This document shows, one piece after another, positions 553 through 38,478 of a stretch of 64,000 nucleotides of DNA. The stretch comes from Bacillota bacterium. Its GTDB lineage: Bacteria; Bacillota; Sulfobacillia; JAJZYS01; JAJZLH01. The position numbers were made by a program, and so were the translations under genes. Position 1 is the stretch's first letter. Each line of letters opens with the position of its first letter. Below the pieces are notes generated by a model that did not search any database, was not told the origin of the DNA, and worked only from the letters and a program-made list of their open reading frames with translations. The stretch lies in the NCBI GenBank assembly GCA_021850485.1, contig JAJZLY010000029.1:16364-80363 (forward strand), in the 5' to 3' direction.

Positions 553-3237
553 ATGGCGATCGAAGAGAAGAGCGGGGCGGACCCTGAGCAGGCGGTAGAG
601 CTCCAAGAGTGGCGCGAGTCTTTGGACTACGTACTGGCGCAAGCAGATCCCCAGCGCGTCAGGGACCTGCTGGAGGCCCTGTGGTCGCAAGCTCAGGCCG
701 CCGGTGTTGAACCTGCAGCGCCAGGACGCACCACCGGTTACGTCAACACCATTGCTGCCAGAGACGAGGCCGACTATCCAGGCGATCTGGCACTGGAAGC
801 GAAGATCGACGCTCACCTCAGGTGGAACGCAGCCGCCATGGTGGTGCGGGCAAACCGGAAAAAAGAGGGTATCGGCGGCCACCTTGCCTCCTATGCCTCG
901 ATCGCTACCCTCTATGAGGTTGGCTTCAACCACGCCTTCGTTGCCGCCGTTGGTGCCGACAGTGGCGACCAGGTGTTTTTCCAGGGCCACTCCGCTCCCG
1001 GTATCTACGCCCGCGCCTTTCTGGAAGGGCGGCTGAGCGAGACCCAGCTCGCCAATTTCCGTCGGGAACTGGCGGAAGGCGGTGGTCTGTCCTCGTATCC
1101 CCATCCCTGGCTGATGCCCGCCTTCTGGCAGTTCCCGACCGTGTCCATGGGCCTGGGTCCGCTGATGGCCGTGTACCAGGCCCGATTCAATCGCTACCTG
1201 AGCCAGCGCAGCCTGAAGGACACCTCGCACAGTCGGGTGTGGGCCTTTTTGGGAGACGGCGAAACGGATGAACCCGAGGCGCTGTCCGCCATCCGATTGG
1301 CCAGCCGCGAGCACCTGAACAACCTCACCTTCGTGGTCAACTGCAACCTGCAGCGGCTGGACGGGCCAGTGCGCGGCAACGGCAAGGTGGTTCAGGAGCT
1401 CGAGGGTTTGTTTGCCGGCGCCGGCTGGCGGGTGATCAAGGTGCTGTGGAGCCGGGCCTGGGACCCGTTGTTCGAGCGAGACCGCCACGGCGACCTGGCG
1501 GCCCGGTTGGCCGAGATCACGGACGGCGAGTATCAGCAATGCTTGGCCGGTGGGCCCAGCGTACTGCGCCAGGTGGTCTTCAATACCCCAGCCACCCAGC
1601 GCCTGATCGCGGGCATGGACGAGGCGGGACTGGCTGAGCTGATCCCCGGCGGCTTGGACCCGGTGAAAGTCTACAGCGCCTACCGGGAGGCCATGGATGA
1701 GCCAAATCGGCCGACCGTAATCTTGGCCCAGACGGTGAAGGGGTATCGCTTGGGGTCCGAGTTGGAAGCCAGGAATCTGACCCACGACCAAAAGAAGATT
1801 TCCGCCGAGTCTCTGATCGCACTCAGAGATCGCCTGGGTCTTAAGATCCCGGACCAGGCCGTGACCAAGGAACCGCCGTTTGTGCCGCTGGCCAAGGGAT
1901 CCAAAGAAATGGCGTACTTGCAGGCGCGCCGCCAGGCTCTGGGCGGATCACTGCCCGCCAGGCGGCCGTTTGGCGAAACCCTTCCCGAGGCTGAGGACAA
2001 GGTGTTCGCCGAGTTTGACTTGGGCTCCGAACGGCCTGTCTCTACCACCATGGCCACGGTGCGGCTCTTGACCAACCTGTTGCGGGACCCCGGTCTGGGG
2101 GCCAGAGTGGTGCCGATCGTTCCGGACGAGGCCCGCACCTTCGGCATGGAAAGCCTGTTTCGCATGATCGGCATCTACAACCCAGACGGTCAGCGCTATC
2201 AGCCGGTGGATGCCGGCACGCTGCTGCCCTATCGCGAAGCCAAGAACGGTCAGTTGCTGGAAGAGGGAATCAACGAGGCCGGAGCCATGGCCTCGTTCAT
2301 CGCGGCCGCCACCTCCGGGATCACCCATCAGGTGGCGACCATCCCCTTTTACTGGTTCTACTCCCAATTCGGCTTGCAGCGGATTGGCGATCTGGTCTGG
2401 GCGGCAGGCGAGATGCGCAGCCGCGGGTTTCTGTTGGCCGGACTTTCCGGCCGCACCCAGTTGCAGGGAGAGGGTCTGCAGCACCAAGACGGTGGCAGCC
2501 ACCTGTTGGCCATGCAGTACCCGACGCTCGAGGCCTATGATCCGGCGTTCGCCTATGAGGCGGCGGTGGTGATCAAAGACGGTCTCAGGCGCATGCTCAA
2601 GCGGCGCGAGATGGTGTTTTACTACCTGACCCTGGGCAACGAGACGTACCCGCAGCCGCACCGGCCCAAAGGCGTCAGCGATCAGGCCATCTTGGCCGGG
2701 CTCTACCCGTACGCCACAGAGCAGGCTGCGGCCAAAGGCAAGGAAAAGCCGCCAATAGTCCAGATCATGGCTCAAGGGGTGCTGATCCATCAGGCCATCG
2801 CCGCCCAGGGCCTGCTCAAAGAACAAGGGGTTTCCTCTGAGGTGCTCTCCATGCCCTCGATCAAGGCGTTGCACCGCGACGCCTCTGACCAAGAGCGTCT
2901 GCGCCTGCTTGGGGAGCCGAGCCGACCCTGCCATTTGGCGGAGGTGTTGGGGGACAGGGCAGATGCGGTGGTAGCCGTCTCCGACTATGTGCGCGCCCTG
3001 CCCGACAGCCTGGGCCGCTGGGTGAAGGCGCCGTTTGCCACCCTGGGCACGGACGGATTTGGTCGGAGCGAGGGCCACGAGGAGCTGCGCACATTCTTCG
3101 AAGTCGATGGCGCGCACATTGCCTACGCTTCGCTGGCCCTGCTGGTGGAAGCCGGCAAGTTGGACAAAACGGTGCTGAAGACGGCCAAGAAGGCTTGGCA
3201 GATCGACACCAAGGCTGCCCATCCGCGCAGCCGTTAA
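553..3237 (+). CDS. aceE: Pyruvate dehydrogenase E1 component, homodimeric type
   Basis: About 895-aa ORF with AceE-type motifs (GHLASYASIATLYEVGFNHAF, VWAFLGDGETDEPEALSAIRLA); ATG at 553 preceded by GGGAGGGG; the ORF track start at 487 is in frame. Confidence 0.93.
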   Translation: MAIEEKSGADPEQAVELQEWRESLDYVLAQADPQRVRDLLEALWSQAQAAGVEPAAPGRTTGYVNTIAARDEADYPGDLALEAKIDAHLRWNAAAMVVRANRKKEGIGGHLASYASIATLYEVGFNHAFVAAVGADSGDQVFFQGHSAPGIYARAFLEGRLSETQLANFRRELAEGGGLSSYPHPWLMPAFWQFPTVSMGLGPLMAVYQARFNRYLSQRSLKDTSHSRVWAFLGDGETDEPEALSAIRLASREHLNNLTFVVNCNLQRLDGPVRGNGKVVQELEGLFAGAGWRVIKVLWSRAWDPLFERDRHGDLAARLAEITDGEYQQCLAGGPSVLRQVVFNTPATQRLIAGMDEAGLAELIPGGLDPVKVYSAYREAMDEPNRPTVILAQTVKGYRLGSELEARNLTHDQKKISAESLIALRDRLGLKIPDQAVTKEPPFVPLAKGSKEMAYLQARRQALGGSLPARRPFGETLPEAEDKVFAEFDLGSERPVSTTMATVRLLTNLLRDPGLGARVVPIVPDEARTFGMESLFRMIGIYNPDGQRYQPVDAGTLLPYREAKNGQLLEEGINEAGAMASFIAAATSGITHQVATIPFYWFYSQFGLQRIGDLVWAAGEMRSRGFLLAGLSGRTQLQGEGLQHQDGGSHLLAMQYPTLEAYDPAFAYEAAVVIKDGLRRMLKRREMVFYYLTLGNETYPQPHRPKGVSDQAILAGLYPYATEQAAAKGKEKPPIVQIMAQGVLIHQAIAAQGLLKEQGVSSEVLSMPSIKALHRDASDQERLRLLGEPSRPCHLAEVLGDRADAVVAVSDYVRALPDSLGRWVKAPFATLGTDGFGRSEGHEELRTFFEVDGAHIAYASLALLVEAGKLDKTVLKTAKKAWQIDTKAAHPRSR

Positions 3238-3259
3238 GGGACGGGTAAGGAGGATCCAG

Positions 3260-4570
3260 ATGGCGAGCGACTTTCGACTCCCCAAGCTGGCCGAAAAGGA
3301 GACCACCGGGACGGTGGCCCGGGTCACCGTGGCCGCTGGCGATGTGATCGAGAGCGGTCAGGTGGTGGCCGAGGTGGAGACCGAAAAAGCCGTGGTGGAG
3401 GTGCCGGCGGAGTCTGGTGGCACCGTTGTGAAGGTGTACGTGAGGGCCGGCGACGAGGTCAAAGAAGGAACGCTGCTGCTGCGGGTCGAGACCGGCAACG
3501 GCGCATCCGAGCAGGCTTCCGCTCCGGCACAGGCGACCGAGGCCGATGAGACGAAAGCTGCGGACCCATCTCCCCCAGCACGAACGCAACCCAAAGCCGC
3601 CCCGGATGAGACGCTTGCAGCGAAAACGGACGATCTAGACGAGGATGAGGCTTTGGCCGAGCCGGCTGCCGCTTCAGACAATGTGCGTGCGCTGGTGCCA
3701 GCGGCGCCGTCTGTGCGCAGGCTGGCGCGCGAGCTGGGCATCGCCATCGGCCAGGTGGCTGGCTCCGGCCCGCACGGCCGGGTCAGCGAGGCCGACGTCA
3801 AGGCCCATGCCAAGAGGCTGATCACTGGCGGCAGCGGACGAGGGGGCGAGGCGCTGCCGGATTTCAGCCGCTGGGGCGAGGTCCAGCGGGAGAAGCTGTC
3901 AGCGGTGCGCAAGGCCACGGCCCACCACTTGAGCAGGTCGTGGCCGCAGGTGCCTCAGGTGACGCAGTTTGATCGGGCGGATGTCACCTTGCTGGAGGCG
4001 GCCCGTCGGCACCACGTGCAAGACCAGGGCGCAGTGAAGGTGACGCCCACCGCCGTGTTGCTCTATGTGGCAGCCCGCCTGATCCGCGAATCGCCGAAGT
4101 TTCGCTCGAGTCTGGATCTGGCCCATGAGGAATTGATCGTCAAGGAGTCCGTGCACATCGGGGTGGCCGTGGACACCGAGCGCGGCCTGCTGGTGCCAGT
4201 GGTGCGCGACGCTGACAAGAGGTCTTTGCTTCAACTCGCCCGTGACCTGACAGAGCTCAGCCTGCGAGCGCGTGAGGCTAAGCTGGGACTGGCTGAGATG
4301 GAGGGCGGGGTCTTCACCATCTCGAACCTCGGCGGGATCGGCGGCAGCGGCTTCACACCGGTGGTGAACTGGCCTGAGACGGCGATTTTGGGCGTCGCCC
4401 GCACCGCCACCGAGCCGGTGTGGCAAGATGGCGCCTTTGTGCCAAGGGATCTGATGCCCCTGTCGCTGTCCTACGATCACCGGGTGATCGATGGGGCTGA
4501 GGCAGCCCGGTTCTTGCGCCAACTGTGTGAGCGGCTCGAGGATCCGTTTCACCTGATGCTGGAGGGATGA
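3260..4570 (+). CDS. aceF: Dihydrolipoamide acetyltransferase E2 (one lipoyl domain, E1/E3-binding domain, catalytic domain)
   Basis: Lipoyl motif VETEKAVVEVPA; PSVRRLARELGI binding domain; C-terminal SLSYDHRVIDGAEAARFL. Confidence 0.92.
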   Translation: MASDFRLPKLAEKETTGTVARVTVAAGDVIESGQVVAEVETEKAVVEVPAESGGTVVKVYVRAGDEVKEGTLLLRVETGNGASEQASAPAQATEADETKAADPSPPARTQPKAAPDETLAAKTDDLDEDEALAEPAAASDNVRALVPAAPSVRRLARELGIAIGQVAGSGPHGRVSEADVKAHAKRLITGGSGRGGEALPDFSRWGEVQREKLSAVRKATAHHLSRSWPQVPQVTQFDRADVTLLEAARRHHVQDQGAVKVTPTAVLLYVAARLIRESPKFRSSLDLAHEELIVKESVHIGVAVDTERGLLVPVVRDADKRSLLQLARDLTELSLRAREAKLGLAEMEGGVFTISNLGGIGGSGFTPVVNWPETAILGVARTATEPVWQDGAFVPRDLMPLSLSYDHRVIDGAEAARFLRQLCERLEDPFHLMLEG

Positions 4571-5985
4571 TCATGGCAAAGACGGATCAGGTGGCAGAGT
4601 TGGTGGTGGTGGGCGGTGGACCGGGCGGCTATGCGGCTGCCTTCCACGCCGCCGATTTGGGGCTGAGCGTAACCCTGATCGACCCAGAGAAAAATCCCGG
4701 TGGGGTGTGCCTGTATCGGGGATGCATCCCGTCCAAGGCGCTGTTGCACGTGGCCCGGGTGATTGGCGAGGCCAAAGAGTCAGAGACGGCCGGGGTCAGC
4801 TTTGGGGCTCCGAAGATCGATCTCGACAAATTGCGCACCTTCAAAACGGGGGTGGTGGAGCGATTGACCAGCGGGCTCGGCCAGCTGAGCCGGGCGCGCA
4901 AGATCACCTTCATCCAGGGCCGAGCTCGGTTTACCGCTGCCAACGAGCTGGAGGTGACCGGCGTAGACGGCGCCAAGAGCCGTCTGAGCTTTACCCAGGC
5001 CATCATCGCCACCGGATCGCGGGCGGCCACACTCAAGACCCTTCCCGACCATGAGCGGGTGATGAATTCACGCCAAGCTCTCGACCTGCCCGATATCCCG
5101 AAGCGGCTTCTGGTGGTGGGCGGTGGCTACATTGGCGCCGAGATGGCCAGCGTCTATGCGGCGCTCGGCTCCAAAGTCACGATGGTGGAACTCACCGGCG
5201 GTCTTTTACCCGGTGTCGACCGCGACTTGGTAAAACCGCTCGAGACACGGATCAAAACCGTGCTGGAGTCGTTGTTGCTCAAAACCAAGGTGGCCTCGGC
5301 CAAGGTCCAGGGCAAAGCTGTTCTGGTCGAGTTTGATGGCCCAGACGGCAAGAGGCAGGAGACCTTCGACCGGTTGCTGGTGGCGGTCGGGCGGGTGCCG
5401 AACAGTCAGGACATCGGCCTGGACAAGTTGGGCATCGCAGTCGACGACAAGGGGTTCATACCTGTCGACTTGGCGAGGCGAACGAAACTCGCCCACATTT
5501 TTGCCATTGGCGATGTGGCCGGTCAGCCGATGCTGGCTCATAAGGCCAGTCACGAGGGCCAGGTGGCGGCCGCCGCCGCCGCTGGCAAGAAGGTGGCCTT
5601 TGAGCCGCAGGCCATTCCGGCTGTGGTGTTCACCGATCCTGAGGTGGCCTGGTGTGGCCTGACCGAAGACGACGCCAAGCGAACCGGAGTTGAAGTGAAG
5701 ATCGGGAAGTTCCCCTGGGCCGCCTCGGGGCGGGCGCTGACCATGGGCCGGTCGGACGGTCTGACCAAGATCGTGGTCGAGGCTGCAACCGGCCGCGTGC
5801 TCGGAGTTGGCTTGGTGGGACCTGGTGCCGGAGAGCTGATTGCCGAAGGAGTGCTGGCGGTGGAAATGGCTGCCGTGGCCGATGACCTGGCGCTCACCAT
5901 CCACCCTCACCCCACGCTGTCCGAGACCGTCATGGAGGCTGCTGCATCGGTGTTTGGCAAGAGCCTGCACTACTACGGGCGCTAG
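4567..5985 (+). CDS. lpdA: Dihydrolipoamide dehydrogenase E3
   Basis: GGGPGGYAAAFHAADLG FAD motif, GGVCLYRGCIPSKALL redox disulfide, HPHPTLSE C-terminal motif; overlaps the end of aceF. Confidence 0.93.
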   Translation: MIMAKTDQVAELVVVGGGPGGYAAAFHAADLGLSVTLIDPEKNPGGVCLYRGCIPSKALLHVARVIGEAKESETAGVSFGAPKIDLDKLRTFKTGVVERLTSGLGQLSRARKITFIQGRARFTAANELEVTGVDGAKSRLSFTQAIIATGSRAATLKTLPDHERVMNSRQALDLPDIPKRLLVVGGGYIGAEMASVYAALGSKVTMVELTGGLLPGVDRDLVKPLETRIKTVLESLLLKTKVASAKVQGKAVLVEFDGPDGKRQETFDRLLVAVGRVPNSQDIGLDKLGIAVDDKGFIPVDLARRTKLAHIFAIGDVAGQPMLAHKASHEGQVAAAAAAGKKVAFEPQAIPAVVFTDPEVAWCGLTEDDAKRTGVEVKIGKFPWAASGRALTMGRSDGLTKIVVEAATGRVLGVGLVGPGAGELIAEGVLAVEMAAVADDLALTIHPHPTLSETVMEAAASVFGKSLHYYGR

Positions 5986-8005: not shown

Positions 8006-8090
8006 GGAGGGGTACCGAAGTGGCCAAACGGGGCGGTCTGTAAAATCGCTGGCATTGCCTTCGTTGGTTCGAATCCAACCCCCTCCACCA
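8006..8090 (+). tRNA. tRNA-Tyr (GTA)
   Basis: GGAGGGG/CCCCTCC acceptor stem, long variable arm, anticodon loop CTGTAAA on stem GCGGT/ATCGC, encoded CCA. Confidence 0.93.
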
Positions 8091-8132: not shown

Positions 8133-8208
8133 GCTGACGTAGCTCAGTCGGTAGAGCACCTGCATGGTAAGCAGGAGGTCCCCGGTTCGATCCCGGGCGT
8201 CAGCTCCA
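8133..8208 (+). tRNA. tRNA-Thr (GGT)
   Basis: GCTGACG/CGTCAGC acceptor stem, CCTGC-ATGGTAA-GCAGG anticodon arm, GGTTCGATCCC T arm, encoded CCA. Confidence 0.95.
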
Positions 8209-8209
8209 G
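8164..8209 (+). repeat. 46-bp direct repeat, copy 1 (tRNA-Thr 3' part; attL candidate)
   Basis: ATGGTAAGCAGGAGGTCCCCGGTTCGATCCCGGGCGTCAGCTCCAG, identical at 9927-9972. Confidence 0.95.
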
Positions 8210-8219
8210 CGAAAAAGTG

Positions 8220-8243
8220 GTCCCCGCGCGTTGCGCGGGGACT
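8220..8243 (+). terminator. Intrinsic terminator-like hairpin after tRNA-Thr
   Basis: GTCCCCGCGCG-TT-GCGCGGGGAC followed by TTT. Confidence 0.6.
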
Positions 8244-8254
8244 TTGGGTTTCGA

Positions 8255-9055
8255 TCACGGCGATTTGTGGGCTGTCACGAACAGGTAATCCCCCGGTAAC
8301 GACCCGTCCCCCATCTGATCTTTCAAGCGTTTGAATCTGCCGGTGGCGACGTCCGCCTGCAGGCGGGTGAGGCCTTCTTGAAGTTCGTCAGGGGAAGCAT
8401 TCGCAAATGAAGAGATGCCCGTGCGCACCGCGGGATCGAGATAGAACTCCGGGTGGTGTTTTCCCGCGTAGAGGAACAGGTCGACGGGATTCTCTTCGAT
8501 CCAATACGGGATGGAGATGACATCGGAAAAACCGGCGTCCTGGAGTAGCGCCTTGACAGTGCTGACTGATGGCATAGAGTCTGCAGACTGCTCAATGAGG
8601 CGCGGAAAGTATTCCCGCAGCCAGTAGCGTTGGATTTGCGCGGGATCGGCGGTGAATATGCAGAATCGTCCACTATCGAGAAGAATGCGAAAAGCTTCGC
8701 GGAACACTTGCGGCAGGATGGAAGTCATGTGGTGAAGCGCAAGAATGCATGTCGCCCCGTGCAGCGATCGATCGGCGAACGGGAGTGAGGACGCCTCGGA
8801 GACGTGCCAATCGATAGTGGGTGCCTTGGATCGCGCCTGAGCGATCATGGCCGGCTCGGCGTCTACTCCGCTCATGCGGATTTGGAGGGCGGAGAGAGCA
8901 ATAGTGTAGTTCCCGGTGCCGCAGGCGATGTCGACACATGTGTGTTCGGGTTGGAAGTCGAGCAACTTGAAGAGCTGTCTTACAATGGCAGGTTCGGCTC
9001 GACGCGTTCGGTCGTAGTCCGGCCCGAGGTCTGCGTACAGAGACGTGACTACCAC
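8255..9055 (-). CDS. Class I SAM-dependent methyltransferase
   Basis: CVDIACGTGNYTIALSALQIRMSGVDAEPAMIAQA (motif I) and GATCILALHHM; lies between the tRNA-Thr direct repeats. Confidence 0.8.
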   Translation of the reverse strand: MVVTSLYADLGPDYDRTRRAEPAIVRQLFKLLDFQPEHTCVDIACGTGNYTIALSALQIRMSGVDAEPAMIAQARSKAPTIDWHVSEASSLPFADRSLHGATCILALHHMTSILPQVFREAFRILLDSGRFCIFTADPAQIQRYWLREYFPRLIEQSADSMPSVSTVKALLQDAGFSDVISIPYWIEENPVDLFLYAGKHHPEFYLDPAVRTGISSFANASPDELQEGLTRLQADVATGRFKRLKDQMGDGSLPGDYLFVTAHKSP

Positions 9056-9088
9056 TCCTCTTCGCCCGGCACGGCTGCGTGCCCAGCG

Positions 9089-9517
9089 TTAGTCGACCAA
9101 CACCAACCTACGCCCGAGTGCGCGCATCACTCGATCGACCGTTGCAAGGGTGGGGTTGGACCCAGAGCGCTCCCACTTTTGTACAGCTTGAAAGGTTACG
9201 TCGAGCCGTCTGGCCAATTCGACCTGGGTGACTCCGGCCCGCTCGCGCTCCAGGCGAAGTAGTACCGGCCACCCGACACGCGGATCGGGTTCGATCCACA
9301 CTAAGTCTTCTCCAGAATCAAGCCCGTTTGGCGGCCACGGGATCGCATCTCCGCGGTCTAGCATGGCTCCAAGCACGCCGGTCAGGGCTTCCCGTGCCGC
9401 GGACTTGGCAGACTCAACGTCAACCCCGAACGTGAGCACATTGTCGAGAGGAGTGAGCGACTTCGAGTATACGACCCCGTCTTCGGTCCAAGTGCGGAAC
9501 GGGTACTGCAGCATCAA
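9089..9517 (-). CDS. HicB-like antitoxin with C-terminal XRE-type HTH
   Basis: N-terminal HicB-like fold (YPFRTWTEDGVVYSKSLTP...A.SAAREAL), C-terminal HTH (ERAGVTQVELARRLDVTFQAVQKWERSGSNPTLATVDRVMRALG); overlaps the HicA-like gene. Confidence 0.75.
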   Translation of the reverse strand: MMLQYPFRTWTEDGVVYSKSLTPLDNVLTFGVDVESAKSAAREALTGVLGAMLDRGDAIPWPPNGLDSGEDLVWIEPDPRVGWPVLLRLERERAGVTQVELARRLDVTFQAVQKWERSGSNPTLATVDRVMRALGRRLVLVD

Positions 9518-9696
9518 GGTCGCCTAACCTCCCTTCGAATGGCGGCGACCAGGCCCGGGGGCAGATCTCTTGATCCGTGCACGGGCACGGGGATCGGCCG
9601 CCTCCCTGGCTTGACCATGATGTGGTGGGAACCCTCGATCCTGTCCAGGAGCCAACCTTGGCTCTCCAGTTCCCTGATCAAGCCCTTCCCCGTCAT
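9514..9696 (-). CDS. HicA-like mRNA interferase toxin
   Basis: MTGKGLIRELESQGWLLDRIEGSHHIMVKPGRRPIPVPVHGSRDLPPGLVAAIRREV: GSHH and PVP.H...L..G motifs. Confidence 0.82.
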   Translation of the reverse strand: MTGKGLIRELESQGWLLDRIEGSHHIMVKPGRRPIPVPVHGSRDLPPGLVAAIRREVRRP

Positions 9697-9706
9697 GCCA
9701 GCAGTA

Positions 9707-9724
9707 TACAACTCTTGGGTTGTA
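9707..9724. promoter_or_regulatory. Inverted repeat upstream of hicA, candidate autoregulatory operator
   Basis: TACAAC-tcttgg-GTTGTA, overlapping a minus-strand TATACT -10-like element. Confidence 0.5.
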
Positions 9725-9780
9725 ATGGCGACGAGTCGGACGGGCTTCAGAAATGGGGCCAAAAATGGGGCCGTAGGTCT

Positions 9781-9902
9781 TGCATCTTGGTGTAACTCGA
9801 TGGAACCTACTGCACATCAGGCCACTGCGACGAGAGCAGGAAAACCGCTCCAGAGGCAGAATCACAGCATACTACTGCATCTAAATGTAACTCGAGGTAA
9901 CT
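9781..9902. repeat. Pair of imperfect 26-bp direct repeats (9781-9806 and 9877-9902), integrase arm-site candidates
   Basis: TGCATCttggTGTAACTCGAtGgAAC versus TGCATCtaaaTGTAACTCGAgGtAAC (21/26 identical), ending 25 bp before the distal tRNA-Thr repeat. Confidence 0.7.
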
Positions 9903-9926
9903 AGCCGTTTCGGCCTGAAGACCTAA

Positions 9927-9972
9927 ATGGTAAGCAGGAGGTCCCCGGTTCGATCCCGGGCGTCAGCTCCAG
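9927..9972 (+). repeat. 46-bp direct repeat, copy 2 (partial tRNA-Thr 3' duplication; attR candidate)
   Basis: Identical to 8164-8209; the 5' half of the tRNA is absent, so this is not a functional tRNA gene. Confidence 0.95.
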
Positions 9973-10366
9973 AACTAGACCCACTGCCCGCAAGGCTAGC
10001 GGGTTTCACATTTCCGGGCTCCGGCCCCGAGTGGGGCAGTTGGTGCAAGAGCTGGTGCACGGCCTCTCGAATCGAGGCGTGGCCAGTCTGGACGGGCTGT
10101 CTCGAGTTTGAGCGGAGTTTTCGCGAGAGCCGCACGGCACATGGGTTCGCGGGCGCGAGAAAATTCGTTGGCACGACAAACCTGCTTCCTGCCCGCTGCC
10201 GGCCGGCCCAATGTTTCAGCATGACGGACTCAACTTGATGGCTATTCTCTCTGTAACCTGCTTCTGGACCGTGTTTGAGGGGCAGGGTGAGCCCGCCAGG
10301 TAGATGAAAGAGCGGGTGGACGGTGGTACACTACCAGCGGGGCGATCGTAAGCGCCGTGCTGGGCC

Positions 10367-10753
10367 GTGAGTAAACCAGCGGAGCGCCAGATTCCGAACC
10401 CGGAGGACGAGGATCCGACTCCCTCCGGCCCTGCTAAATGTCCTCAGCGATCCCTTTGCATGCAGCTGTCAGACTCGCGGGGGTGCAAGTCGTGCCACCC
10501 ACCGTCCTCAATAGAACAGGGCTTTCGCTTTCGGTTCTACTCCAGCGACATGGGCGAACCCCCGTACATCCACGCTGTCCACCATTCGGGACCCGCGAAG
10601 ATTTGGCTTGTGCCGGTCTCGATCGCCCGTTCCAGCGGGCTCAGTCGGGCACAGGAGCGGCAGGCGGTCAACATCGTCAGCCGACACCACCAGGAATTGA
10701 TGGAGGCATGGCAGAGGTTCGCAGAGAGAGGAGGCCCGGACCTTGATCGTTGA
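10367..10753 (+). CDS. DUF4160-like protein
   Basis: FRFRFYSSDMGEPPYIHAVHHSGPAKIWL...LSRAQERQAVNIVSRHHQELMEAWQRF resembles the DUF4160 pattern; start uncertain. Confidence 0.65.
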   Translation: MSKPAERQIPNPEDEDPTPSGPAKCPQRSLCMQLSDSRGCKSCHPPSSIEQGFRFRFYSSDMGEPPYIHAVHHSGPAKIWLVPVSIARSSGLSRAQERQAVNIVSRHHQELMEAWQRFAERGGPDLDR

Positions 10754-11057
10754 CATGGACCCGACCATCATTGCCGTGTCCGTAGCGGACGGCAGCATCC
10801 GGGTGTCCCTTCGGGATGGACGCCAGGTGAGCGCTCCGGTGCGCTGGTTCCCGCGGCTCGAGGCCGCCACGCCGACACAGCGGGAGCAGGTTGAGATCGA
10901 CCCTGCCGGCACGGCTCTGCACTGGCCAGAACTGGACGAGGATATCGACGTGAGCGCCTTCTTGGCCAAGGAGCACATCGCCACCTCGCCGATCGCCTCG
11001 CTACTCGTCTCTGACGACGGCTCACTGGCGGAGACCGCTCGGCGGGGCAGACCCTAA
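10743..11057 (+). CDS. DUF2442-like protein
   Basis: VADGSIRVSLRDGRQVSAPVRWFPRLEAATPTQREQVEIDPAGTALHWPELDEDIDVSAFL: DUF2442 pattern; overlaps the DUF4160-like gene. Confidence 0.75.
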   Translation: MIVDMDPTIIAVSVADGSIRVSLRDGRQVSAPVRWFPRLEAATPTQREQVEIDPAGTALHWPELDEDIDVSAFLAKEHIATSPIASLLVSDDGSLAETARRGRP

Positions 11058-11157
11058 GGCCAAGAGCCACGTCTCAGGGTGGGGACCGAGATCATCAGGG
11101 TGAGCCGTGTTACGGGCGAGCAGGCCGGGCGTTCGCCCACAACGAAGAACGCGGCTC

Positions 11158-11331
11158 ATGTCCAACGTGGTGCCCCGCCCCCGCAAGGGCGACCGACCAG
11201 ACCGGCCCACCAGGTGGTCGCTCACCTGGCGGGCAACCCGCCCGGACGGGACCTCCCAACGTCTCTACGAAACGTTCTCCGGCACCATGATGGCGGGCGC
11301 CAAGGGACGGGAACATAGACGAGGGTCGTCG
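11158..11331 (+). pseudogene. Possible truncated tyrosine integrase, N-terminal fragment
   Basis: MSNVVPRPRKGDRPDRPTRWSLTWRATRPDGTSQRLYETFSGT resembles integrase N-terminal regions; no catalytic domain follows. Confidence 0.3.
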
Positions 11332-11714
11332 CGATCGATGACTGTCGTACCCAGCCCCAAGTTTGTCCCGGTGTTGACACAGCGTGCCTATGAACGGATG
11401 TTGATCATCCGTTCCGTCCAGGTGCTGCCCCGTTCAGGGTCTCGTACAATTGCACTGGCGTCGAGTTGGAGATCGGCTGGGTGACCACGGCCCACGCAGT
11501 TTGAACAGACGGTGCAGCGACTGGTAAACGTCAAGTAAAAGTGGGCCAATGGGTATGGGCCTGTTGACCCGGTCTGTGGAACCGATAGGTATGGGCCCAT
11601 ACCAATAGACGCCCTGGCGTGCTCCGTCATCATGGCAGGCCCGCTGCCGCCGCCTGGGTCATGTCTCGCCAAGGGGTGTAAAAGCGATTCACTCGGGTTC
11701 GAGCGTTATGTAGT

Positions 11715-12007: not shown

Positions 12008-13510
12008 TCAGCGTTGGTGGCTCGCCACAGCGTTCGCAACCGGCGATGGTAGCGGCCGGCCGAGCCCGGATCCAATCTCACGCCCCAGTTCGGCGTCGAC
12101 ATTGGTCCAATAGGCGACCACTTGATCTTGAACCGGGCTTGAAACCTGATCGCTGGCGTGGCCCACCACGTTGGACACTAGGTGAGCGCGGTCGGCTGCG
12201 CTCAAGACATCACGCACCAAGGTCCCGGCTTGGCCGAAGTCGTCGTCCTCCCGGTGCAGGTCGTAGGCGTAGCGGCCGATCTCCTGGCCCTCTACGGACC
12301 ATCCTAGATCCACACCAGCGGCCCCATCAGCCACTGGTCCGCCATACGAATTGGGGGCGTACACGGGCTGGGCGTCGGCATGGTGATAGGTCATGGCGCC
12401 CTCCTTATTGTAGGAGTGCACGGGAACCTTGGGGGCGTTGATCGGCAGCTGCTCATAGTTGGGGCCGATCCGGTGCAGGTGCGTGTCGTGGTAGGAGAAG
12501 ATGCGGGCCATCAGGACGCGATCTGGACTGAGTCCGGTGCCTGGCACCAGGTTGGCCGGCGAGAAGCCGGCCTGTTCCACCTCGGCGAAGAAATTCGCCG
12601 GATTGCGATCCAACACCAGGCGGCCGACCGGGATCAGTGGGTAATCCTGGTGCGGCCAGACCTTGGTCAGATCGAACGGATTGAAGCGATAGTCCGCGGC
12701 CTCAGCAAAGGGCATCACCTGCATCTCAAGTCGCCACTCTGGCGCTTCACGGCGGGCGATCGCCTCACTCAGGTCCCGGCGGTGGAAGTCCGGATCCTCG
12801 CCTGCCATGGCCATAGCCTCGCTGGCCGTGAAATTCTCGATCCCTTGTGCCGTCTTGAAGTGATACTTGACCCAGTAGCGCTCGCCACCGTCGTTGACGC
12901 AGGAGAAGGTGTGCGATCCGAAGCCATTCATGTGCCGCCAGCTGCGCGGGGTGCCGCGGTCGGACATCAAGATCGTCACCTGATGCGCCGACTCTGGAGA
13001 CAGGGTCCAGTAATCCCACTGCATGTCGTTGGAGCGCAGTCCGGTGTCCGGGAGGCGCTTTTGCGAGTGGATGAAGTCCTGGAACTTGGAGGGGTCCCGC
13101 ATGAAGAAGACCGGCGTATTGTTGCCGACCAGGTCGAAATTACCCTGATCTGTGTAGAACTTCAGTGCGAAGCCGCGGGGGTCTCGCAGGGTATCCGGGT
13201 AGCCTTGCTCGCCGGCCACGGCGGAAAAGCGGGCGAAAACCGGCGTCCGTTTGCCGACTTTGGCCAGGAAGCTGGCCTTGGTGAACCACCTGACGTCGTC
13301 TGTCACCTCAAAGAAGCCGTGGGCACCCGAGCCCTTGGCGTGCACCACTCGTTCTGGCACGCGTTCCCGGTTGAAGTGCTGCATTTTTTGGACCAGGTAA
13401 TGGTCGTGCAAGACGATCGGGCCTGTGGGACCGACGGTCAGAGAATACTCGTCGCTGGGTGCGAGGATGCCAGAGTCGGTGGTTGTCGACGGTACTGTGA
13501 GCTTCTTCAC
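12008..13510 (-). CDS. Monofunctional heme catalase
   Basis: GFALKFYTDQGNFDLVGNNTPVFFMRDPSKFQDFIHSQKR, YWTLSPESAHQVTILMSDRGTP, RIFSYHDTHLHRIGPNYEQLPIN; GTG start at 13510. Confidence 0.93.
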   Translation of the reverse strand: MKKLTVPSTTTDSGILAPSDEYSLTVGPTGPIVLHDHYLVQKMQHFNRERVPERVVHAKGSGAHGFFEVTDDVRWFTKASFLAKVGKRTPVFARFSAVAGEQGYPDTLRDPRGFALKFYTDQGNFDLVGNNTPVFFMRDPSKFQDFIHSQKRLPDTGLRSNDMQWDYWTLSPESAHQVTILMSDRGTPRSWRHMNGFGSHTFSCVNDGGERYWVKYHFKTAQGIENFTASEAMAMAGEDPDFHRRDLSEAIARREAPEWRLEMQVMPFAEAADYRFNPFDLTKVWPHQDYPLIPVGRLVLDRNPANFFAEVEQAGFSPANLVPGTGLSPDRVLMARIFSYHDTHLHRIGPNYEQLPINAPKVPVHSYNKEGAMTYHHADAQPVYAPNSYGGPVADGAAGVDLGWSVEGQEIGRYAYDLHREDDDFGQAGTLVRDVLSAADRAHLVSNVVGHASDQVSSPVQDQVVAYWTNVDAELGREIGSGLGRPLPSPVANAVASHQR

Positions 13511-13565
13511 GGTACACCTGTCCTTCGCTTGCACACCCCATCCGACAGCACAAACGAGCTGAGAG

Positions 13566-13579
13566 ATTATGCCAATAAT
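13566..13579. promoter_or_regulatory. AT-rich inverted repeat upstream of catalase
   Basis: ATTAT-gcca-ATAAT about 56 bp upstream of the catalase start. Confidence 0.3.
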
Positions 13580-13651
13580 ACTCTTTAGTGCCTGGGAAAT
13601 AAACGCCGACGGCCGTAACCCGAAGCGCACCGCGCCGCCGTGTACGCCTCG

Positions 13652-37701: not shown

Positions 37702-38478
37702 ATGCTACCGGAGAAGACGTTCGAGGGTCAGCTGGCGATTGTCACGGGTGGTGGCTCTGGCATCGGCCTGGCTGTTGCCTCGGAGATCAGTCGCTTGGGA
37801 GGACGTGTGGTGCTCGCTGGCCGCAAGCCTGAGCGGTTGGCCGACGCGGTCGCTGCCTTGACGGCGGCAGGCGGCAGGGCCATGGCACAGCCTACGGACG
37901 TGCGCCAGCCCGAACAAGTCGACGCGCTGGTGGAAGCCGCCTTGGCCTGGGGTGGCAGCGTCGACATGTTGGTCAACTCCGCTGCCGGCAACTTTCTGGT
38001 CGATGCCGACCAATTGTCAGTCAATGGCTGGCTGGCTGTGGTCAACACTGTGTTGAACGGTACGTTCTTTTGCTCGCGAGCCGTCGGCCGGCAAATGATC
38101 GCATCGGGGCGTGGTGGCCGCATCGTTTCGATCGTGGCCAGCTATGCCTGGACCGGAGGGCCGCACACGGTGCACTCGGCTTCGGCCAAGGCCGGCGTGG
38201 TGGCGATGACCCGCACCTTGGCCGCAGAGTGGGCCAGGCATGGGGTGCGGGTCAATGCCGTGTGTCCGGGACCGACGGACACCGAGGGGGCGAGACCGCT
38301 GTGGCAGGATCCCCTGGCTCGAGAGCGCCTGCTCGCCAGCATCCCCGTGGGTCGGTTCGCCAAACCCGAAGAGATTGCCCAAGCCACCACCTATCTGTTA
38401 TCGCCTTACGCCGACTATGTGAACGGAGAGGTGCTGGTGATCGACGGCGGCGAGTGGCTGGGCAAGGGGCTGAGCTGA
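37702..38478 (+). CDS. SDR family oxidoreductase
   Basis: VTGGGSGIGLAVASEI; NSAAGNF; HSASAKAGVVAMTRTLA; ATG 37702. Confidence 0.9.
   Translation: MLPEKTFEGQLAIVTGGGSGIGLAVASEISRLGGRVVLAGRKPERLADAVAALTAAGGRAMAQPTDVRQPEQVDALVEAALAWGGSVDMLVNSAAGNFLVDADQLSVNGWLAVVNTVLNGTFFCSRAVGRQMIASGRGGRIVSIVASYAWTGGPHTVHSASAKAGVVAMTRTLAAEWARHGVRVNAVCPGPTDTEGARPLWQDPLARERLLASIPVGRFAKPEEIAQATTYLLSPYADYVNGEVLVIDGGEWLGKGLS

Follow-up and report, generated by a model that had tools for sequence, protein, structure and literature searches.

A putative CIME-like mini-island carrying a methyltransferase and a predicted HicAB pair at tRNA-Thr(GGT) in a Sulfobacillia genome

The window analyzed here is a stretch of 64,000 nucleotides from a draft Sulfobacillia genome (G000), in which a tRNA-Tyr/tRNA-Thr pair is followed by a 1.76 kb insert (8210-9926) and by a second copy of the tRNA-Thr 3' part. 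The features of the insert and of its borders, in window coordinates, are as follows.

8006-8090, plus strand: tRNA-Tyr(GTA), a conserved left-flank neighbor (ARAGORN, Rfam)
8133-8208, plus strand: tRNA-Thr(GGT), intact, with a chromosomal 5' half and a 3' half from the element (attL; ARAGORN, Rfam, flank comparison)
8164-8209, plus strand: 46-bp direct repeat, left copy, comprising the core and the 3' part of the tRNA
8217-8250, plus strand: terminator-like hairpin after the tRNA (GTCCCCGCGC..GCGCGGGGAC, then T-rich), from the element left end, read directly
8255-9055, minus strand: class I SAM-dependent methyltransferase, variable cargo (Pfam Methyltransf_25, 6e-17)
9089-9517, minus strand: HicB-type antitoxin with a C-terminal HTH_3 domain (Pfam HTH_3, 6.6e-12; 78% identity to the G008 copy)
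9514-9696, minus strand: HicA mRNA-interferase toxin (Pfam HicA_toxin, 1.3e-15; 88% identity to the G008 copy)
9754-9772, plus strand: TGGGGCC arm-type repeat pair at 12 bp spacing, 157 bp ahead of the core (distal end, CCTAAATGGTAAGCAGG)
9781-9901, plus strand: second direct-repeat pair, TGCATCT..TGTAACTCGA (9781-9806 and 9876-9901), candidate further protein-binding sites
9921-9972, plus strand: attR, the displaced tRNA-Thr 3' part with an element-derived left edge, CCTAAATGG

The 46 bp at 8164-8209 recur exactly at 9927-9972, as the first-pass annotation had reported, at a spacing of 1763 bp, and the identity is 96% when the comparison is extended to 52 nt (8158-8209 and 9921-9972). A chance origin is excluded at such a length. 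The repeat starts in the anticodon loop of tRNA-Thr. ARAGORN and Rfam call a single, whole tRNA-Thr(GGT), at 8133-8208, and do not call the distal copy as a tRNA, which agrees with the earlier statement that the tRNA 5' half is missing there; the insert thus has the intact gene at one end and, at the other, a displaced 3' fragment that keeps the orientation of the gene. Because the left edge of the repeat reads CCTGCATGG in tRNA-Thr versus CCTAAATGG in the distal copy, a plain assembly duplication is ruled out.

The left flank (lysine 2,3-aminomutase, tRNA-Tyr, and tRNA-Thr) and the right flank from ∼13659 are kept in two same-genus relatives, G001 and G002, and the distance from tRNA-Thr to the right flank varies across the three genomes (∼5.4, 13.7, and 6.9 kb). 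The insert is absent from both relatives. The predicted empty site, in which window position 8163 is joined to 9927, aligns across the tRNA as one 399-bp block at 92% identity in G001 and as one 304-bp block at 88% identity in G002, and in G001 tRNA-Thr is joined directly to the sequence found after the distal copy of the window (97% over 9921-10100). These alignments, together with the absence of the insert from the relatives, indicate that DNA was inserted between 8164 and 9926. Either the insertion postdates the split from G001 and G002 or the insert was lost from both. The first-pass annotation had recognized the layout left by a tRNA-targeting tyrosine integrase and had proposed a search of relatives for a single-copy site and for larger islands; the whole tRNA-Thr with its displaced 3' part and the empty site in both relatives bear out the former, and larger or other elements do occupy the same tRNA, with a truncated integrase in G001 and an intact one in G050. 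We note that G002 alone carries ∼5 kb between lysine 2,3-aminomutase and tRNA-Tyr (C40:16400-21540; L119 11400-16540), with kinase-like and ABC transporter genes. A catalase gene (window 12008-13630) lies just right of the variable slot; it is several kb further from the tRNA in G001 and was not seen in the G002 slot.

All three genes of the insert, encoding the SAM methyltransferase, an HTH antitoxin, and HicA, lie on the minus strand. The HicA gene overlaps the antitoxin gene by 4 nt, which is the HicAB gene arrangement, and the two are predicted to form a toxin-antitoxin (TA) pair; pairing with HicA suggests that the N-terminal half of the 9089-9517 product is HicB. The methyltransferase is present in only 4 of the 154 class genomes at E ≤ 1e-30, with its own genome counted. 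It was considered as a shared part of the related units described below and rejected, since it is missing from the sister elements, and it is therefore treated as cargo. Against PADLOC, the cargo gives weak matches that cover domains only in part. The earlier description of a methyltransferase and a HicAB-like module with no intact integrase agrees with the Pfam matches: the only insert ORFs with family matches are the methyltransferase, the HicB-like protein, and HicA, with no integration or transfer genes, and neither a family search of the ORFs nor searches with integrases gave an integrase match within 8210-9926. No relaxase or transfer-gene remnants were seen in the insert, and its arm repeats match the format found at the 3' ends of integrase genes.

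The core, CCTAAATGGTAAGCAGGAG, occurs five times in the 154 class genomes (one in G000, three in G008, one in G009), in every case at a tRNA-Thr 3' fragment, and the reversed-pattern control gives zero. In the right ends compared, the core is preceded by TGG[G/T]G[C/T]C repeat pairs, 12 bp apart. Across six such ends from two bacterial families, the second repeat lies 157, 156, 157, 158, and 157 bp from the core in five, and 57 bp in the sixth; the right ends of G005, G006, G007, and G008:C27 are on contigs unjoined to the tRNA. Elsewhere, the background of such arm pairs is 1 per 2.7 million strand-bases. Left ends in G007, G008, and G009 also carry the repeat, singly or twice, 70-85 bp in from the tRNA. 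No left-end arm repeat was found in the window insert, and its methyltransferase stop is only 46 bp from tRNA-Thr, which suggests that this end may be damaged; the window unit, with its left arm missing, may now be immobile or fixed. The att sites that the insert has kept are the 46-bp direct repeat and the right-end arms. A short frame before the right end, MGPKMGP*, was considered as an integrase C-terminus and rejected as too short for homology, so only the repeat format was counted as evidence. In viral contigs the exact core has no match, and the arm pattern has one unrelated match, away from any integrase.

The integrase-less right end (HicAB, ATGGGGCCAAAAATGG) is common to the window and to two genomes of another family. 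In G008, a member of the same order, the same tRNA is occupied by a nucleotidyltransferase gene, HicB, and HicA, followed by ATGGGGCCAAAAATGGGGCCGTAGG. G005 combines an acetyltransferase gene and a HicB-like ORF with HicBA; its version of the right end is slightly worn and adjoins a worn tRNA-Thr 3' copy. The HicAB module and right-end arms share ∼77% DNA identity with those of G008 and G005, the left-hand cargo differs, and all three lack an integrase in the interval from HicA to the arm repeats. Between the families, identity is 78% for HicB and 88% for HicA versus 65% for SdhA, a pattern that would fit horizontal movement. The flanking stretches align in all three; a deletion makes the HicA-to-arm interval ∼70 bp shorter in the window, so that an independent deletion there is conceivable, if unlikely.

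Related units of ∼1.0-2.1 kb, some in tandem, are bounded by tRNA-Thr 3' copies in further places. G009 carries a PemK toxin with a phosphotransferase gene (2425-4508, ∼2.1 kb) and a unit with MazEF only (4560-5522, ∼1.0 kb); G008:C27 has a 1.35 kb NUDIX unit and a VapBC unit, G008:C50 a VapBC unit ending at 38127, and G006:C104 a VapC unit of ∼1.2 kb. No integrase was found in these unit stretches of G009, G008:C27, G008:C50, and G006:C104. All of the genomes compared are drafts (MAGs), and the module counts are small. Contigs end at or inside the tRNA-Thr 3' half in G005 (C23, position 3) and in G013 (C61), as expected if tandem 3' repeats break short-read assemblies. Nothing on tandem, integrase-deficient TA arrays at tRNA-Thr turned up in a search of the literature.

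Directly after the distal copy lies an older remnant, which we call element A and which the first-pass annotation missed (9973 to ∼11337).

9973-11337, plus strand: element A, an older tandem remnant, the left end of which abuts the tRNA directly in G001
10041-10059, plus strand: arm-like pair, TGGTGCA twice, 12 bp apart, ∼70 bp inside the element A left end (read directly; same in G001)
10367-10753, plus strand: DUF4160 protein, weakly DhiT-like toxin (Pfam 6.8e-16; NCBIfam DhiT 1.3e-4, below cut-off)
10743-11057, plus strand: DUF2442 protein, probable partner antitoxin (Pfam 9e-22)
11158-11337, plus strand: tyrosine integrase, first ∼61 codons, truncated (tblastn with intact integrases)

Since element A follows the distal copy, the MTase-HicAB insert is flanked by the tRNA on one side and by an older remnant on the other, which is tandem accretion. 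The stretch 9973-11304 is 93-97% identical to G001, whereas the surrounding chromosomal genes are ∼75-86% identical, and element A has therefore moved or recombined recently. Its DUF4160 and DUF2442 proteins are probably a toxin-antitoxin pair. By tblastn, its integrase fragment is 48% identical to an integrase of G014 (1e-11) and 44% to one of G002 (1e-8). In G001 the counterpart of element A continues into more of the same integrase, truncated too (C6:35330-35599), and then into a worn tRNA-Thr 3' copy at C6:35776-35824. A search of the window for a tRNA-Thr remnant that would close element A on the right gave no matching end; the best score, 22, is below the shuffle mean of 27.

In G050, an intact integrase stands directly before a tRNA-Thr 3' copy and ends in repeats spaced 11-13 bp apart. 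Repeats at this spacing lie within ∼25 bp of the stop codon in 5 of the ∼11 distinct integrases that match the G050 enzyme; over all loci, with a 250-bp window, spaced repeats accompany 9 of 18 integrases, several of these being duplicate loci, versus 35 of 360 random windows. The place and format of the repeats at integrase 3' ends lead us to infer that they bind the integrase arm domain. An integrase of fitting family and arm format is present in G014: it is intact, ends in TGGCGCCCAAAATGGCGCC, and provides the N-terminus that matches the element A fragment at 48%. No full integrase matching the insert arms, and no helper element, was found in the same genomes. As separate observations, type I restriction-modification-like genes adjoin the intact TGGCGCCCAAAATGGCGCC integrase in G014 (C79; L238 3044-7712), and in G000 three integrases (L139, L141, and L138 on C17, C25, and C23) abut tRNA-Ala(GGC), tRNA-Ala(CGC), and tRNA-Thr(TGT), with repeats at 11-13 bp spacing at the stop codons, TTCGCGCCAACTCTTCGCGCCAACT being one example. 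Close to another integrase at tRNA-Ala, a tyrosine integrase gene contains an internal TAA (G000 C17:60029-60547).

Taken together, these observations suggested to us that 8210-9926 is probably an integrase-less, CIME-like mini-island that was inserted by a tyrosine recombinase, with the integrase most likely supplied in trans, as the cis sites (core and right-end arm pair) are kept and the recombinase is missing. The unit entered tRNA-Thr(GGT) in the anticodon-loop region by site-specific recombination of the tyrosine-recombinase type; the element's own tRNA 3' part restored the gene, and the original 3' part was displaced 1.76 kb downstream. The sequences themselves show this insertion and the restored tRNA, the conserved geometry of the right ends, and the right end without an integrase in two families. 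We propose that the integrase came from another element and was of the 'VPRPxKGDRPDRP' family; it would bind the core and arms and join the unit to the tRNA, and HicAB may then hinder loss of the unit. The integrase was probably already missing when the window copy inserted, given the integrase-less HicAB right end in another family and the same-genus relatives without the insert. The simplest reading of the sequences is that it was gone before the window, G008, and G005 copies spread.

The main competitor is that a larger, integrase-bearing island entered tRNA-Thr in this lineage and that internal deletion in place removed the integrase and other genes and left MTase-HicAB. Truncated integrases are indeed common at the locus (window 11158-11337; G001 C6:35330-35599), the left end of the insert, having no arm repeat, suggests a deletion there, and the G050 integrase sits directly before a tRNA-Thr fragment. 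However, the integrase-less HicAB right end in G008 and G005, of the other family, implies a loss older than the insertion, and G001 and G002 are without the insert altogether; we regard decay in place as unlikely, though worth keeping in mind. The first-pass annotation had spoken of a decayed mini-island that kept its cargo, of which the cargo without an integrase stands, while decay at this site is at odds with a right end common to G008 and G005. It is also conceivable, and in our judgment improbable, that the insert arrived with a neighboring integrase-bearing element as a CIME-ICE tandem and that the helper then left or decayed into 9973-11337. Joint movement of such tandems as a single unit is known (PMC5704250), and the window has both the tandem layout and, in element A, an N-terminal integrase fragment of fitting family. 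Against this, element A in G001 abuts the tRNA directly, without the MTase-HicAB insert, so the two have separate histories, and their arm repeats differ (TGGGGCC in the insert, TGGTGCA in element A). A misjoin at the repeated tRNA 3' end during assembly or binning might be suspected from the draft MAGs and from the G005 and G013 contigs that end at or inside tRNA-Thr, but both junctions agree with the relatives, with a left flank orthologous to that of G001 and G002 and a right flank in G001 order, and the HicAB-arm-core end matches the independent assemblies of G008 and G009, which makes an artifact highly implausible.

Among known systems, the nearest to a trans-integrated mini-island would be the CIMEs, which are defined for ICE/IME derivatives that keep attL and attR and have no integration or transfer genes (PMC5704250). 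Judged by its anatomy, the insert falls within that definition: att sites are kept, integration and transfer genes are absent, and accretion at the 3' end of the target gene is in tandem. The units differ from CIMEs in being only ∼1.0-2.1 kb, mostly one TA module plus one gene, and in that the integrase-less form appears to have been inherited and moved as such, with no helper found. What distinguishes them is their small size, their wealth of toxin-antitoxin modules, and the fixed geometry of the right end. In Dehalococcoides, 15 of 31 ssrA-specific islands are without an integration module (PMC3146451), and these islands, too, lie in tandem, with 3'-end repeats of a tRNA-like gene at their borders; they use a serine recombinase, DsiB, at the tmRNA gene and are larger with reductive dehalogenase cargo, whereas the units here have a tyrosine-integrase-type core and arms, tRNA-Thr, and TA cargo. 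The dif (pdif) modules of Acinetobacter (∼0.8-3 kb, one being a 768-bp toxin-antitoxin module; PMC6449649) are also discrete, in some cases lone TA pairs, and bounded by recombination sites with the recombinase in trans, as we infer for the present units, but they use XerCD/dif sites on plasmids with no tRNA target and no arm-type sites. A standard island finder, Islander, uses the same whole tRNA and displaced 3' fragment to mark ends and requires an integrase gene inside each island (PMC4383910), so units like the insert would be missed by it.

More tentatively, the units may make up an undescribed class of 1-2 kb integrase-less cassettes that move among the families of the order, each with paired arms at a fixed ∼157 bp from its tRNA-Thr core and, as a rule, a single TA module, and that build tandem arrays via the integrases of other elements, in the way that dif modules rely on XerCD. 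The constant arm-core spacing can serve as a concrete pattern for searches, and it defines a minimal substrate open to testing. Should the units be mobile in their present form, the tRNA locus could receive minimal cassettes with no requirement beyond a core and arms, and the TA pair would be a plausible retention device.
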